Origin: Fibrobacter sp.
Lineage (GTDB): Bacteria > Fibrobacterota > Fibrobacteria > Fibrobacterales > Fibrobacteraceae
Length of the DNA stretch: 64,000 bases
NCBI GenBank assembly: GCA_024398875.1
Contig: JAKSIJ010000008.1
Location: 1 to 64,000, forward strand
Direction of reading: 5' to 3'
Part shown: positions 1,969 to 7,203 of the stretch, one piece after another
Numbering within the stretch: position 1 is the first letter of the stretch
Layout: every line of letters begins with the position of its first letter
Position numbers and translations under genes: made by a program
Notes under the pieces: model-generated
The model's database searches: none
The model's input: the letters and a program-made list of their open reading frames with translations, nothing else
Told to the model about the DNA's origin: nothing

Positions 1969-2997
1969 CTACGTTTGATTATCTTCGGCTTCAAACAAAT
2001 CTAACGTTGCTTCTTTCTTCTTTCGGCTCTTTCTTTTCTTGGGTTCTTTTTTCTCTGCATTATAAACAGCTTTTTCCTCACAAACGGCTTGCATCTGCGG
2101 AACTGCAATCGGGTATTCTATGACATTCTCACCACCCAAACTTATCGGCGAGCACCCCTTTTCAATCAGAATGCGGTTTGCATTCTTTTCACCATCGTCA
2201 GGCTTACGGACATAAATTTTGCAACCACGTTTCAAACCATTCATCACACCAGACCAAGTGCCACCACCTTCATTTGATTCCGCAACATAAATTTCACTAG
2301 CCAAGCCATAAATAAAGCGATTCCGATCCATCGCCAAACGGGTCGACCAAGGGACTTTCGGGGCATAAGCGCTAACGACGAGAACCTTTCCTTCTATGAT
2401 TTGCTTGTAGTACTGTTTAAAGCCCGACGCAAAAGTCGATATTCCCTGGGGCAATACAATGACGCTTTTACCTTCAACAGAAACCGCTGCATCCAAAGCC
2501 ACTCTATCAACGCCCTTCGCAAAGCCGCTCACAACGACCTTGCCTTCTTTTGCCAACTTAGAAGAAATCTTGCGAGTAAAATCCAACGATATTTCGCTTG
2601 CCGAACGCGCCCCAACAACGGCAACAGACGGCTGGTTTAACAAGCCAATGTTTCCCTTTGCATACAACAAGACAGGGCAGCCGTTTTTCTTGAGATTATC
2701 TTTCAGCAGTTGCGGAAATTCTGGGGAAGTTGAAGGAATCAGTACAAAACCTTGGCTCAATAAATTTTCCACAGCAAAAGCATTATTAGCCAGTTGTTCC
2801 TTAGCTCTAGAAAGAGCATCGACATCAGCAAGGTTCATACCAAAGACGGAATTCCAATCCTGAGTGGACATAGAGAAGAAATCTACTACGGATTTTTTCT
2901 CTTTAAAGCACTTGATTAAAACGTCATTCTTCACAGACGTATTTACAGCAGCATGAGCCAAAGCCATCCAATATGCCAACTCGTTCAGTTCGCTCAT
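1969..2997 (-). CDS. DprA/Smf-like protein (SMF Rossmann domain), defence-associated
   Basis: 342 residues. An N-terminal helical region (about 1-95) precedes a DprA/LOG-type Rossmann fold (about 95-290) with 'SVAVVGARSASEISLDF', 'VVVSGFAKGVDRVALDAAV', 'GKSVIVLPQGI' and 'AMDRNRFIYGLASEIYVAE', matching the VGxR, SGxAxGxD and RNRxI signatures of DprA. The tail is Lys/Glu-rich and the usual C-terminal winged helix of DprA is not evident. True DprA loads RecA on incoming single-stranded DNA. The start codon here overlaps the stop of the RecQ-PRTase gene by 4 bp (ATGA), so the two are probably translationally coupled. That pairing and the R-M setting point to a ShosA-like or other defence role, not competence. 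Confidence 0.85.
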   Translation of the reverse strand: MSELNELAYWMALAHAAVNTSVKNDVLIKCFKEKKSVVDFFSMSTQDWNSVFGMNLADVDALSRAKEQLANNAFAVENLLSQGFVLIPSTSPEFPQLLKDNLKKNGCPVLLYAKGNIGLLNQPSVAVVGARSASEISLDFTRKISSKLAKEGKVVVSGFAKGVDRVALDAAVSVEGKSVIVLPQGISTFASGFKQYYKQIIEGKVLVVSAYAPKVPWSTRLAMDRNRFIYGLASEIYVAESNEGGGTWSGVMNGLKRGCKIYVRKPDDGEKNANRILIEKGCSPISLGGENVIEYPIAVPQMQAVCEEKAVYNAEKKEPKKRKSRKKKEATLDLFEAEDNQT

Positions 2998-5030
2998 AAA
3001 TCACCTCCGACAGTCTTGGCGATTACAATCGGCGTTACCGTTTCCGCTCCATTTTTCTTTAGCATTTTTGCAATTTCATTCATTGTAGCACCGCTATCGT
3101 AAATGTCGTCCAGCAAAAGAATATTTTTCCCGACAAGAATCTCTGGCGAAGCAAAGCCAAACGCATCCTTGACATTACTCCTTTTCAAGATAGCATTTTG
3201 AGGAATCTTTTGAGCCTCGGTCAGTCTCATCTTCTTTAAATCATGGCTGAGAGGAACACCAATCCTGACGGTCAACTTTTCTGCAAAATTTTTCACCAAG
3301 TCACCCGAAATCGTTGGCGGCACGTACAACAACATATCAAAGTGTTGTGCAGAAAGCTTTTTCTGCACCATTCTAGCCATTCTCGCAACAAGTTCATCGG
3401 GAAAATCACCACCGTTTTCGTATTTGCAGTGATGCAAAATCTGACCGATTTCGCCCGCTTCCTGAATGTAGTTATCCAAAGCATAGCCAATATCCAAAGA
3501 AGAGGTCTTCTTCGGAACCAATTCCGGGAAACGTTCATTTTTAAAAGTCTTGAGGTTCGTCCACAAGTCACTATGTAGGGAATTATCCAAGAAACCCTTT
3601 AAATTTGTATTATCGCAATTGCTTGAAGGAATATCAATTTTATCGCCAAGGTATTTACGAAGATAGTCCATGCGAGGTTCAGTCGTGTTTACGTAACCAA
3701 TCATAGCGTTCAAATCTTCCAATTTCGCTAGGCGCAGTTTTTCAAACGATTCCGTTTTCAATTCAGGAGCATCGTATTTATACTCATACTTACCCCCATC
3801 ATTCTTAAAAATTATTTTCTGCTCTACCAAATCCGCAAGAATCGTCCTCACGGGGGTCTGCTTCATATTCAGTTTTTCCATAACGCCCCTTTCGCCAAGG
3901 GGTTCGTTTTTCAAGGCTTCAACAACAGCTTCATATTCCGGTATTTTAGGCTTCGCATTATTGATAAAACTCAACGGGAGTTTTTCATCAAAAGACTCGC
4001 CAGCATCATCCCTATTTTCATTATAAAACAGGATGATATCTGCCGGCAGCCCATCTCTCCCTGCTCTGCCGATTTCCTGATAATAGTGTATCGGCGACTG
4101 GGGCATTTGCGTATGGATGATAAAGCGAATGTCGGGTTTGTCAACACCCATTCCAAGCGCATTTGTGGAAACTATAGCTTTCCAACGATTTTCCTGTAGC
4201 CCTCGTTCAATGTCAACGCGAGTTTCAGCCTCAAGAGATCCGTTATACATGGCGGCCTTGATGCCAACATAATTAAGCCAATCGGCATACACAGCCGTAT
4301 TTACCCTTGTTCCCGTATAAATCAAGCCAGATCCTTCGCAATTTTTCAAGTACTCTGCAATGCGAATTTTCTTCTCATTTTCCGATTTTACTTTCACAAC
4401 GAACAGACGCAAATTTTCACGAAGAAGATTTCCGCGAATTACAGACATTCCATTGCCGATTTGCTCTTGAATATCGTCTTGAACCCGCTGCGTCGCTGTA
4501 GCAGTCACTGCCAAAACAGGAATATCAACAGGCAATATTTTTACAAGGTCAACGATTCTCCTGAAATCAGGACGAAAATCATGCCCCCATTGCGATATAC
4601 AATGAGCCTCATCGACAACGACCATGGATATTTTCATTTGCCGAACAGCTTCTTGCCAAGATACGCTTCCCTGGCGTTCTGGGGCGATATACAATATTTT
4701 TAATTCGCCTTTTTTCGCTTGCTCAATGACAGCATCATTTTTTTCTTGCGTCTGGTTAGAATTGATGCACTGGGCAGCAATTCCCTTATTGTTTAGGGAA
4801 GTGACCTGATCACGCATCAAAGCAATTAACGGAGAGAAAACGATTGTCAATCCGTTAAATTGAGTCGCCGGAAACTGATAGCACAACGATTTTCCAAAAC
4901 CTGTCTTTTGGATAACAAGGACTCGTTCCTTGTTAAACACCTTTTCTATCACCGACCATTGATCATCATAAAAATGGTCAAAGCCGAAGATTTCCTTTAG
5001 CCGACACTCAGCTTCCTGGCGCTTCAACAT
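2994..5030 (-). CDS. RecQ-family DNA helicase fused to a C-terminal phosphoribosyltransferase domain
   Basis: 678 residues. The N-terminal two-thirds is a RecQ superfamily-2 helicase: Walker A 'GFGKS' at about 44-48, DEAH at 140-143 followed by 'CISQWGHDFRPDFR', 'TATATQRVQDDI', and motif VI 'YYQEIGRAGRDG'. A winged-helix-like segment follows (about 370-440); I see no RecQ zinc-cysteine cluster and no HRDC domain. From about residue 540 the protein becomes ComF/PRTase-like and ends with the PRPP-binding signature 'LLLDDIYDSGAT' at about 639-650. It overlaps the DprA-like gene by 4 bp and lies 20 bp after hsdM, so it belongs to the R-M operon. PRTase plus DprA recalls ShosTA; the helicase fusion is the unusual feature. 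Confidence 0.9.
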   Translation of the reverse strand: MLKRQEAECRLKEIFGFDHFYDDQWSVIEKVFNKERVLVIQKTGFGKSLCYQFPATQFNGLTIVFSPLIALMRDQVTSLNNKGIAAQCINSNQTQEKNDAVIEQAKKGELKILYIAPERQGSVSWQEAVRQMKISMVVVDEAHCISQWGHDFRPDFRRIVDLVKILPVDIPVLAVTATATQRVQDDIQEQIGNGMSVIRGNLLRENLRLFVVKVKSENEKKIRIAEYLKNCEGSGLIYTGTRVNTAVYADWLNYVGIKAAMYNGSLEAETRVDIERGLQENRWKAIVSTNALGMGVDKPDIRFIIHTQMPQSPIHYYQEIGRAGRDGLPADIILFYNENRDDAGESFDEKLPLSFINNAKPKIPEYEAVVEALKNEPLGERGVMEKLNMKQTPVRTILADLVEQKIIFKNDGGKYEYKYDAPELKTESFEKLRLAKLEDLNAMIGYVNTTEPRMDYLRKYLGDKIDIPSSNCDNTNLKGFLDNSLHSDLWTNLKTFKNERFPELVPKKTSSLDIGYALDNYIQEAGEIGQILHHCKYENGGDFPDELVARMARMVQKKLSAQHFDMLLYVPPTISGDLVKNFAEKLTVRIGVPLSHDLKKMRLTEAQKIPQNAILKRSNVKDAFGFASPEILVGKNILLLDDIYDSGATMNEIAKMLKKNGAETVTPIVIAKTVGGDL

Positions 5031-5050: not shown

Positions 5051-6616
5051 TTACCGCTTAATTTCCTTCAGTTTCTTGGCCATCAACTTGCGAACTTCGG
5101 CAAGTTCCGCTTCGAGGCGGTCAATATCCTTCTGAACTTCATCCACGTCAATGGGGGCTTCTTCTTCGAAGGTGTCCACATAGCGCGGGATGTTCAGGTT
5201 GTATTCGTTCGTTTTGATTTCGTCAAGCGTCGCAAGATGCGCATACTTATCGACATTTTTGCGCTTCTTGTATGTCGAAACGATTTTCGTAATCATCGCT
5301 TCGGAAAGGGTATTCTGCTTTTTGCCCTGCACAAATTCTCGGCTAGCGTCAATAAAAAGAACGTCCTTGCGCTTGGCGTTCTTGCCGCCGACTTCACGAC
5401 TGCGGTCAAATACGAGAATTGCCACCGGAATACTCGTAGTCGGGAACAAGTTCTCGGGCAAGCCGATAACCGCATCCAGCAAGTTTTCTTCAATCATGGC
5501 TTCGCGAATCTTACCTTCGGACGAGCCACGGAAAAGCACCCCATGTGGAACAACAACGACAACACGGCCTTCACCTGCAAGGCTCGTTTCTACCATGTGC
5601 GTAATAAACGCCCAGTCGCCCTTACTTTTCGGAGGAACACCACGGAAAAAACGGTTGTATTGGTCGTTTTCCGCATTTTCCGCACCCCACTTGTCCAAGG
5701 AGAACGGAGGATTCGCCACAACCACGTTGAATTTCATCAGCTTGTCTTTTTCCACAAGCATCGGGTTATTCAACGTATCGCCCCATTCAATACGGGCACT
5801 ATCGGTACTGTGCAAGAACATGTTCATGCGGCAAAGCGCCCAGGTGCTACCGTTAGATTCCTGACCGAACAGAGCAAAATTGTCATCCTCAACCTGTTTT
5901 GACGCCTGAAGCAGCAAACCGCCGGCACCACATGTGGGATCACAAATCTTATCACCGCCCTTAGGGCCTGCAAGTTTCGCCACAAGTTCCGTCACCACAA
6001 ACGGCGTGAAGAACTCTCCCGCCTTCTTGCCCGATTCCGTTCCAAAGCGTTCCAGCAAGTACATGTACGTATTACCGATAATATCTTCGGAAACGCGGCT
6101 TGGCGACATGTCCAGTTCATCTTTGTGGAAATCTTCAAGGAGCGTTTTGAGACGGCGGTTACGGTCTTTAGTCCTGCCCAAATTCGGTTCGGAGTTGAAA
6201 TCAATGTTGCGGAAAACCCCTTCCAGTTTCAAACGGTTCTGGGTTTCAATCTTGTCCAAAACAATATTGATCAAATCGCCAATGTTATCAGCCGTGCGCC
6301 TATCGTAAAGGCTATAATAGTCCGCAGTGAACTTGTCTATCACCTTCCCTTTTTCGTTCGTCAACTGCACCAATGGCAACACGAAACGTTCTCGTTCCAA
6401 TTTACGGAGAATTCTGGATTCGTCATTGCCATACTGACTGCGATATTTTTCGTAGTGATCACGCCAAACATCGGACACATACTTCAAAAAGAGCATCACC
6501 AGAATGTAGTCCTTGTATTGTGCAGGGTCCACTGCTCCACGGAACGTGTCGCAGGCAGCCCAAGCGGCAGCATTGATGTCATCTTGTTCAATTTGTTTGA
6601 TTTTATTTGCGCTCAT
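5051..6616 (-). CDS. hsdM: Type I R-M DNA methyltransferase subunit HsdM
   Basis: 521 residues, the usual size. An N-terminal helical HsdM_N region (about 10-160) precedes the adenine N6-methyltransferase domain, with S-adenosylmethionine motif I 'DPTCGAGGLLL' and catalytic motif IV NPPF in 'VVVANPPFSLDKWG'. A C-terminal coiled stretch (about 485-521, Glu/Leu/Lys-rich) should contact HsdS. The start overlaps the stop of the upstream half-HsdS gene by 4 bp. With HsdS it would methylate host DNA; the endonuclease subunit HsdR is not visible and may lie left of position 1. Confidence 0.95.
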   Translation of the reverse strand: MSANKIKQIEQDDINAAAWAACDTFRGAVDPAQYKDYILVMLFLKYVSDVWRDHYEKYRSQYGNDESRILRKLERERFVLPLVQLTNEKGKVIDKFTADYYSLYDRRTADNIGDLINIVLDKIETQNRLKLEGVFRNIDFNSEPNLGRTKDRNRRLKTLLEDFHKDELDMSPSRVSEDIIGNTYMYLLERFGTESGKKAGEFFTPFVVTELVAKLAGPKGGDKICDPTCGAGGLLLQASKQVEDDNFALFGQESNGSTWALCRMNMFLHSTDSARIEWGDTLNNPMLVEKDKLMKFNVVVANPPFSLDKWGAENAENDQYNRFFRGVPPKSKGDWAFITHMVETSLAGEGRVVVVVPHGVLFRGSSEGKIREAMIEENLLDAVIGLPENLFPTTSIPVAILVFDRSREVGGKNAKRKDVLFIDASREFVQGKKQNTLSEAMITKIVSTYKKRKNVDKYAHLATLDEIKTNEYNLNIPRYVDTFEEEAPIDVDEVQKDIDRLEAELAEVRKLMAKKLKEIKR

Positions 6617-7203
6617 AGCGACTCCAGATAGTTTGTAATTTCCGTTTCTAAAATTAAATCCTTTTTGCTGGCAATTTCTGACAGCAAGCTCCGCTCCCGC
6701 CTATTCAATTCCATTAAATCCACAATGTTTTTTTGAGATTCAAGGTCCGGAAGCTTCATCGGCATCACTTCAAGAACCGATTTACTTATAAGAGGGATTC
6801 CCGTACCTTTGGCAAATTCCTTAAAATAAGCCGCGCCATACGAGCTGTTGATATACCACACCAAATATTCCGGCAGAAGCATATTTTTATCAACCTCTAT
6901 GCGAATCATCGGGGCCGCAACCAGCAAATCCTCGAAGAGTTGCGGGACCAGCGCAGCGACAAAACTCGCTCCACGGGAGCGGAACACCACCTGCCCCTCG
7001 CGCGCAATATGCGACATATTCGGCATAGCCCCATCAACACGCTTCAACGCAGCAACATTCAAAACGCCACTGGAATCAACATCTTTCAAAAAGCATGTCA
7101 ATATGCCCTGTTCGCCAGGAATACACGTGCTACGGAACGGATAGCCTACAAAAAGCCGGGCGACATTTCCCAAAAGCACATTTTTTGAGCAATTTTCAAA
7201 CAT
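6613..7203 (-). CDS. Half-size type I specificity (HsdS-like) subunit, single target-recognition domain
   Basis: 196 residues with one target-recognition domain (about 1-145) and one conserved helical region at the end ('LPDLESQKNIVDLMELN' onward). Full HsdS proteins carry two of each. It is the first gene of the operon and overlaps hsdM by 4 bp, so it is likely translated and maintained. Half-S proteins can dimerise to recognise palindromic bipartite targets, so this one could act alone, pair with itself, or compete with the full HsdS at 540-1679. The ATG at 7203 has no Shine-Dalgarno sequence; see the promoter entry for possible leaderless expression. Confidence 0.85.
   Translation of the reverse strand: MFENCSKNVLLGNVARLFVGYPFRSTCIPGEQGILTCFLKDVDSSGVLNVAALKRVDGAMPNMSHIAREGQVVFRSRGASFVAALVPQLFEDLLVAAPMIRIEVDKNMLLPEYLVWYINSSYGAAYFKEFAKGTGIPLISKSVLEVMPMKLPDLESQKNIVDLMELNRRERSLLSEIASKKDLILETEITNYLESL

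Follow-up and report, generated by a model that had tools for sequence, protein, structure and literature searches.

A PsyrTA/RqlHI-family gene pair in a Fibrobacter type I restriction–modification operon, with a candidate clamp-binding peptide on its DprA-like partner

Results and discussion

A known helicase–phosphoribosyltransferase system extended to Fibrobacter

The window analysed here (bases 1–64000 of contig C77, from a Fibrobacter genome of 2.78 Mb) carries on its minus strand two overlapping genes: psyrT (rqlH; 2994–5030), encoding a RecQ-like helicase with a C-terminal phosphoribosyltransferase (PRTase) domain, and psyrA (rqlI; 1969–2997), encoding a DprA-like protein. The pair is almost certainly a member of the PsyrTA/RqlHI family. 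Rather than forming a new three-activity system, it adds Fibrobacter to the range of a known toxin–antitoxin and candidate anti-phage system. Thus, of the proposal in an initial annotation that it is a three-activity relative of ShosTA, the relation to ShosTA and the pairing of PRTase with DprA stand, while the novelty does not, as the arrangement is already known as PsyrTA/RqlHI and modelled in PADLOC. The explanation that best accounts for the data, and which we consider probable, is a PsyrTA toxin–antitoxin module whose PsyrA tail docks on the replication sliding clamp and for which the surrounding restriction–modification (R-M) operon serves as a carrier.

The predicted toxin PsyrT (678 aa) contains the RecQ motifs and the phosphoribosyl pyrophosphate (PRPP)-binding signature in a single chain, as first annotated: GFGKS at residue 44, DEAH at 140, QEIGRAGRDG at 318 and DDIYDSGAT at 641 (3084–3110). 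Pfam places a DEAD domain at residues 22–184 (4479–4967), Helicase_C at 225–327 (4050–4358) and Pribosyltran at 582–670 (E 1.6e-7, above its cut-off). The PADLOC PsyrT model, from the pair PDLC03927/PDLC03928, covers essentially the full length of the protein (residues 4–677, E 3.5e-245, 813 bits); with the same model a relative on an E. coli plasmid (L055), which bears DIVD in its PRPP motif, scores 1019 bits. The nearest named relative, PsyrT of F. succinogenes, is 73% identical to the window protein. An AlphaFold2 model (predicted local distance difference test score of 85) had the RecQ core 1oyw as its best match in the PDB. Both the PRPP-binding and the helicase motifs are intact, and in an alignment of 15 relatives D641, D642, D645, A648 and T649 of the PRTase were invariant, as were the helicase motif residues; loss of key PRTase residues across the family, which the initial annotation had named as an outcome that would count against its reading, was thus not seen.

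The window PsyrT is nevertheless not a canonical RecQ, a candidate ruled out by a score under the cut-off of the recQ equivalog TIGR01389 and by loss of the tetracysteine zinc site (residues 447–477, 3600–3692), of which Fibrobacter keeps one of four cysteines (EPRM...SSNCDN) while archaeal relatives retain the site.

The downstream gene overlaps psyrT by 4 bp (ATGA) and encodes the predicted antitoxin or regulator PsyrA (342 aa). Pfam DNA_processg_A matches residues 83–283 (E 4e-41), the PADLOC PsyrA model matches residues 30–319 (E 5e-73, 244 bits) with ShosA as a weaker second match, and the AlphaFold2 model resembles both DprA (3uqz) and ShosA (8zva). An identity as canonical DprA was rejected on a dprA equivalog score of 118.5 bits (cut-off 191). 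The overlap and the lack of a winged-helix tail had both been read correctly from the start: no DprA_WH match was found by Pfam in the window PsyrA, and residues 300–342 are disordered in the model. The peptide in this tail reads KKKEATLDLFEAEDNQT. In the PsyrA alignment the winged helix is missing from other family members too, and in E. coli the last 80 residues of RqlI were dispensable for antitoxin action in a tail deletion (PMC4670107); the winged helix was therefore not treated as defining PsyrTA.

Comparison with characterised systems

The closest experimentally studied system is RqlHI of extraintestinal E. coli, which like the window pair combines a RecQ-like helicase and C-terminal PRTase with a DprA-like partner directly downstream and has a PRPP motif of the type DI[VY]D. 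In E. coli the PRTase domain is genotoxic without RqlI and requires the DIVD motif (Russell and Mulvey 2015; PMC4670107), RqlI co-precipitates with RqlH via the PRTase domain in co-immunoprecipitation, and published RqlH mutants suggest that the helicase helps to keep the PRTase restrained (PMC4670107), while the initial annotation gave RecQ a possible role in sensing. By analogy, the window pair very probably acts as a toxin–antitoxin system. The window proteins differ from RqlHI in belonging to a separate deep clade, at approximately 30% identity to E. coli relatives, in lacking a C-terminal helix-turn-helix or winged helix, in keeping one of the four zinc-site cysteines and in having TLDLF at the PsyrA tail. 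Compared with the PsyrTA system as modelled in PADLOC, the PsyrT match is full-length, and the window pair is nested between hsdM and hsdS.

Rousset et al. place shosTA, syrTA and rqlHI in one group of systems whose antitoxins are homologues of DprA (PMC9122126). ShosTA shares with the window pair the DprA-like antitoxin fold (8zva) and a PRTase effector, but its PRTase stands alone without a helicase and, in the loci read, the antitoxin gene comes first, whereas in the window the toxin gene does. The RecQ domain in the toxin and the toxin-first order ruled out assignment of the window pair to ShosTA; the PADLOC ShosT model matched residues 624–674 of PsyrT only (E 6.8e-6). As a separate observation, plasmids of E. 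coli and Klebsiella carry a DprA-like gene ahead of a 4677-bp gene for a RecQ-family helicase (L254) or behind the hsdR gene of a type I R-M system (L256); this reversed order possibly represents another relative.

A tree of the 66 PsyrT proteins having partners (FastTree) resolved two deep, well-supported clades. The clade of the window (25 rows) comprises Fibrobacter, Bacteroidales, Cloacimonadales, Neomarinimicrobiota, a Melainabacteria-type genome and methane-cycle archaea, while the other holds E. coli, cyanobacterial and most remaining sequences. Among viral contigs screened for PsyrA relatives, 54 pattern matches yielded none that was confirmed, and in phage records the RecQ-type matches were partial only, none reaching 80% of the query.

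A clamp-binding-like peptide at the PsyrA C-terminus

The C-terminal tails of PsyrA proteins repeatedly end in short peptides such as QLSLL (as TQLSLL in cyanobacteria), QLSLF, QIDLF, QLELF, QTTLF, QTNLF, QMELF and QGDLF. The bacterial clamp-binding consensus is QL(S/D)LF, usually located C-terminally (PMC9690074). When the Q-anchored motif was counted in the last 15 residues, it was found in 33 of the 69 PsyrA proteins and, after thinning to 44 sequences at <60% identity, in 17 of these, compared to 14 (1.5%) of 944 other open reading frames (ORFs) from the same loci; shuffling the divergent sequences gave a mean of 1.2 and a maximum of 5 of 44. In a count chosen post hoc, [LIM]F within the last 12 residues was present in 22 of the 23 bacterial members of the window clade and in 57 of the 944 controls. 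The clamp-type motif occurs in both deep clades of the tree and follows winged-helix tails in some PsyrA proteins and short disordered tails in others. No such motif was found in the tails of four canonical DprA proteins used as a control (from Enterococcus, Listeria, Paracoccus and Bacillus).

In the window, the corresponding peptide is TLDLF (1993–2007), which lies in the tail predicted to be disordered and is identical in four Fibrobacter copies, although the remaining tail is only 17/43 identical to that of the window. Fibrobacter could plausibly use a clamp peptide that lacks Q, because the Y-family polymerase, a typical clamp client, has EEVDLF in the genome of the window at one aligned site where its Fibrobacter relatives have QYDLF or GYDLF. 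UmuD, with TFPLF, is a possible precedent for T in place of Q, though no paper confirming this was found.

Archaea use PCNA as their clamp, and some archaeal PsyrA tails end in PCNA-box-like peptides. In two methanogen-type genomes PsyrA ends in VSLDTWIEN or GSLNTWIEI (L106/L225/L189 and L224), and GQKTLESWF is the PCNA box at the end of FEN1 in these genomes. The Methanophagales-type genomes have PsyrA tails ending in TTQKRLEEFP, IIQKTLQFA or AIQKTFFEIQ and FEN1 tails ending in QGSIEQWL, QRRIEQWL or similar. The PsyrA tail matches the PCNA box of FEN1 well in the methanogen-type genomes and only partially in the Methanophagales-type ones, in a post hoc comparison that covers these two lineages only.

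A related peptide is present outside the PsyrTA family. ShosA of the P2-hotspot type in E. coli (L252:1022–2002) has QQLSLLGDE as its C-terminus, which departs very little from the bacterial consensus for clamp binding, and this locus matches the PADLOC ShosA and ShosT models with E values of 1.7e-231 and 4.3e-253, respectively. From the model match and a neighbouring portal gene we infer that this locus encodes the P2-hotspot DprA–PRTase pair for which Rousset et al. report protection against T7 and lambda (PMC9122126). A toxin–antitoxin system that involves the sliding clamp via a clamp-binding motif has been described in Caulobacter, namely SocAB (PMC9690074), but there the toxin binds the clamp, whereas the motif discussed here sits on the antitoxin, and the proteins are unrelated. 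A search of the open literature, with subscription papers mostly outside its reach, found no report joining clamp-binding motifs to DprA-like antitoxins.

Proposed mechanism and alternative explanations

In the proposed mechanism, PsyrA would keep the PRTase of PsyrT inactive until infection or fork damage disturbs the complex, whereupon the released PRTase would modify or deplete a nucleotide or DNA target and the cell would stop. The variable C-terminal tail of PsyrA would serve localisation or sensing by docking the complex on the sliding clamp; the peptide involved would be of the QLxLF type in bacteria, with TLDLF as the Fibrobacter version, and PCNA-box-like in archaea, and the system would therefore watch replication. 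Going by the motif pattern, a clamp tether on PsyrA is about an even prospect. The same balanced judgement applies to the broader proposal that clients of the sliding clamp include the DprA-like antitoxins of PsyrTA and of at least one ShosTA type, with the type of peptide following the clamp of the host domain and infection being sensed as disturbed clamp-bound replication. If true, the pattern would offer a concrete answer to what defence systems of the DprA/PRTase kind sense, and would link PsyrTA and ShosTA by one sensing principle in bacteria and archaea.

Several points weigh against this explanation. The window motif has T in place of the usual Q, the motif is missing in several members, including those of E. 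coli (L055) and Acinetobacter (L053), and the archaeal comparison has the limits given above. Moreover, there is little evidence that PsyrTA itself defends against phage, and one study detected no protection by a native PsyrTA of E. coli (PMC12409345).

The terminal peptide could alternatively act as a protease degron and so shorten the life of the antitoxin. Antitoxins are often unstable, a hydrophobic C-terminus can tag a protein for degradation, and the LF/LL motif is located at or near the very end of PsyrA. The preference for Q four residues before the final F/L fits clamp binding better, however, and motifs that are not terminal (QIDLF-SSITDE in L184, QLSLL-SESESIDIPL in L197 and TLDLF-EAEDNQT in the window) as well as the PCNA-box-like versions in archaea also favour clamp binding, so that a degron appears quite unlikely. 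It is likewise rather unlikely, if somewhat easier to entertain, that the pair serves mainly in DNA repair or recombination, with the RecQ–PRTase protein processing stalled forks and PsyrA handing over single-stranded DNA as DprA does. This would agree with the helicase activity of RqlH from M. smegmatis and the SOS effects of RqlH described in the literature (PMC4670107), with the majority of relatives lying outside R-M operons and with the many Actinomycetota that have a RecQ–PRTase without PsyrA. In four such Actinomycetota loci (L210, L211, L218 and L219) the open frames span approximately 940–1066 aa and may include extra N-terminal sequence.

The R-M operon as one recurrent landing site

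The pair lies between hsdM (5051–6616, ending 20 bp upstream of psyrT) and a full-length hsdS (540–1679) of a type I R-M operon, as annotated at the outset. Such nesting is not unique to the window. Of the six Fibrobacter copies, at least five lie in R-M loci, and three besides that of the window (L048, L050 and L052) share its operon design, in the order half-hsdS (a weak match in L048), hsdM, a KilA-N/ORF6N/Bro-N gene, psyrTA, cargo, hsdS, further cargo and hsdR. The cargo differs among these three at the same two operon spots, which in the window are empty or hold a probable relic. The fifth copy (L051) adjoins the res gene of a type III R-M system and the sixth (L049) a DUF1016 nuclease and an hsdS-like fragment. 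In E. coli, the order hsdM–hsdS–psyrT–psyrA–hsdR was read in one plasmid and one chromosome, and the same psyrA DNA is present in 53 of 5,426 complete genomes. Two more pairs are located in BREX operons.

Across the family, 69 loci contain both genes. Of these, 8 fall within type I R-M, type III R-M or BREX loci, while genes of all three kinds went undetected near the other 61; these calls come from our own profiles, which divergent R-M genes could escape, and stretches of some relatives' contigs were masked. The R-M operon thus recurs as a landing site but is not the rule. The initial description of a nested defence cassette accordingly holds for the nesting itself, and a role specific to R-M was rejected on these counts. 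A Pfam tally of immediate neighbours, made for 104 genes, revealed neither a competence or recombination signature nor a single partner family. Competence genes were thus not enriched, in line with the initial expectation of a defence context, but most relatives beyond Fibrobacter, E. coli and the two BREX loci lie outside R-M/BREX operons.

These data also bear on a possible functional role of the pair within type I R-M, such as cell death upon failed restriction or protection of the R-M genes from being lost. In favour of such a role, its genes point the same way as the R-M genes and are separated by short gaps, an arrangement seen in E. coli, where psyrA recurs in 53 genomes, as well as in the window and at three further Fibrobacter loci. 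However, BREX and type III R-M loci host the same pair, most copies lack R-M genes altogether, and the position varies between M-[TA]-S in Fibrobacter and M-S-[TA]-R in E. coli, which makes a functional part in R-M quite unlikely. In the preferred explanation, that of a toxin–antitoxin module with a clamp-docking tail, the R-M operon would be a carrier site for exchangeable defence genes and not a functional partner, and it is as such carriers that the locus presents R-M operons.

Further features of the operon

On the minus strand, the gene order is a half-size hsdS-like ORF, hsdM, psyrT, psyrA, the full hsdS (379 aa, with two target-recognition domains by Pfam) and an SLFN_AlbA_2-domain gene (1–502; Pfam E 1.7e-15) that is cut by the contig end. 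The first base of the contig falls within the operon, and this contig end leaves hsdR outside the window. The half-size ORF (6613–7203, 196 aa), which overlaps hsdM by 4 bp and whose Pfam Methylase_S match is just under the cut-off, is possibly an alternative specificity subunit present besides the full hsdS; it is kept in at least two other Fibrobacter loci (G002 and G034). Between psyrA and hsdS lies a non-coding stretch of approximately 290 bp (1680–1968) with a 12-bp tandem repeat at 1776–1860, one frame of which reads VPQNVPQNVPQN. This gap is probably the relic of an earlier, lost cargo gene, since relatives carry intact cargo genes in the same interval.
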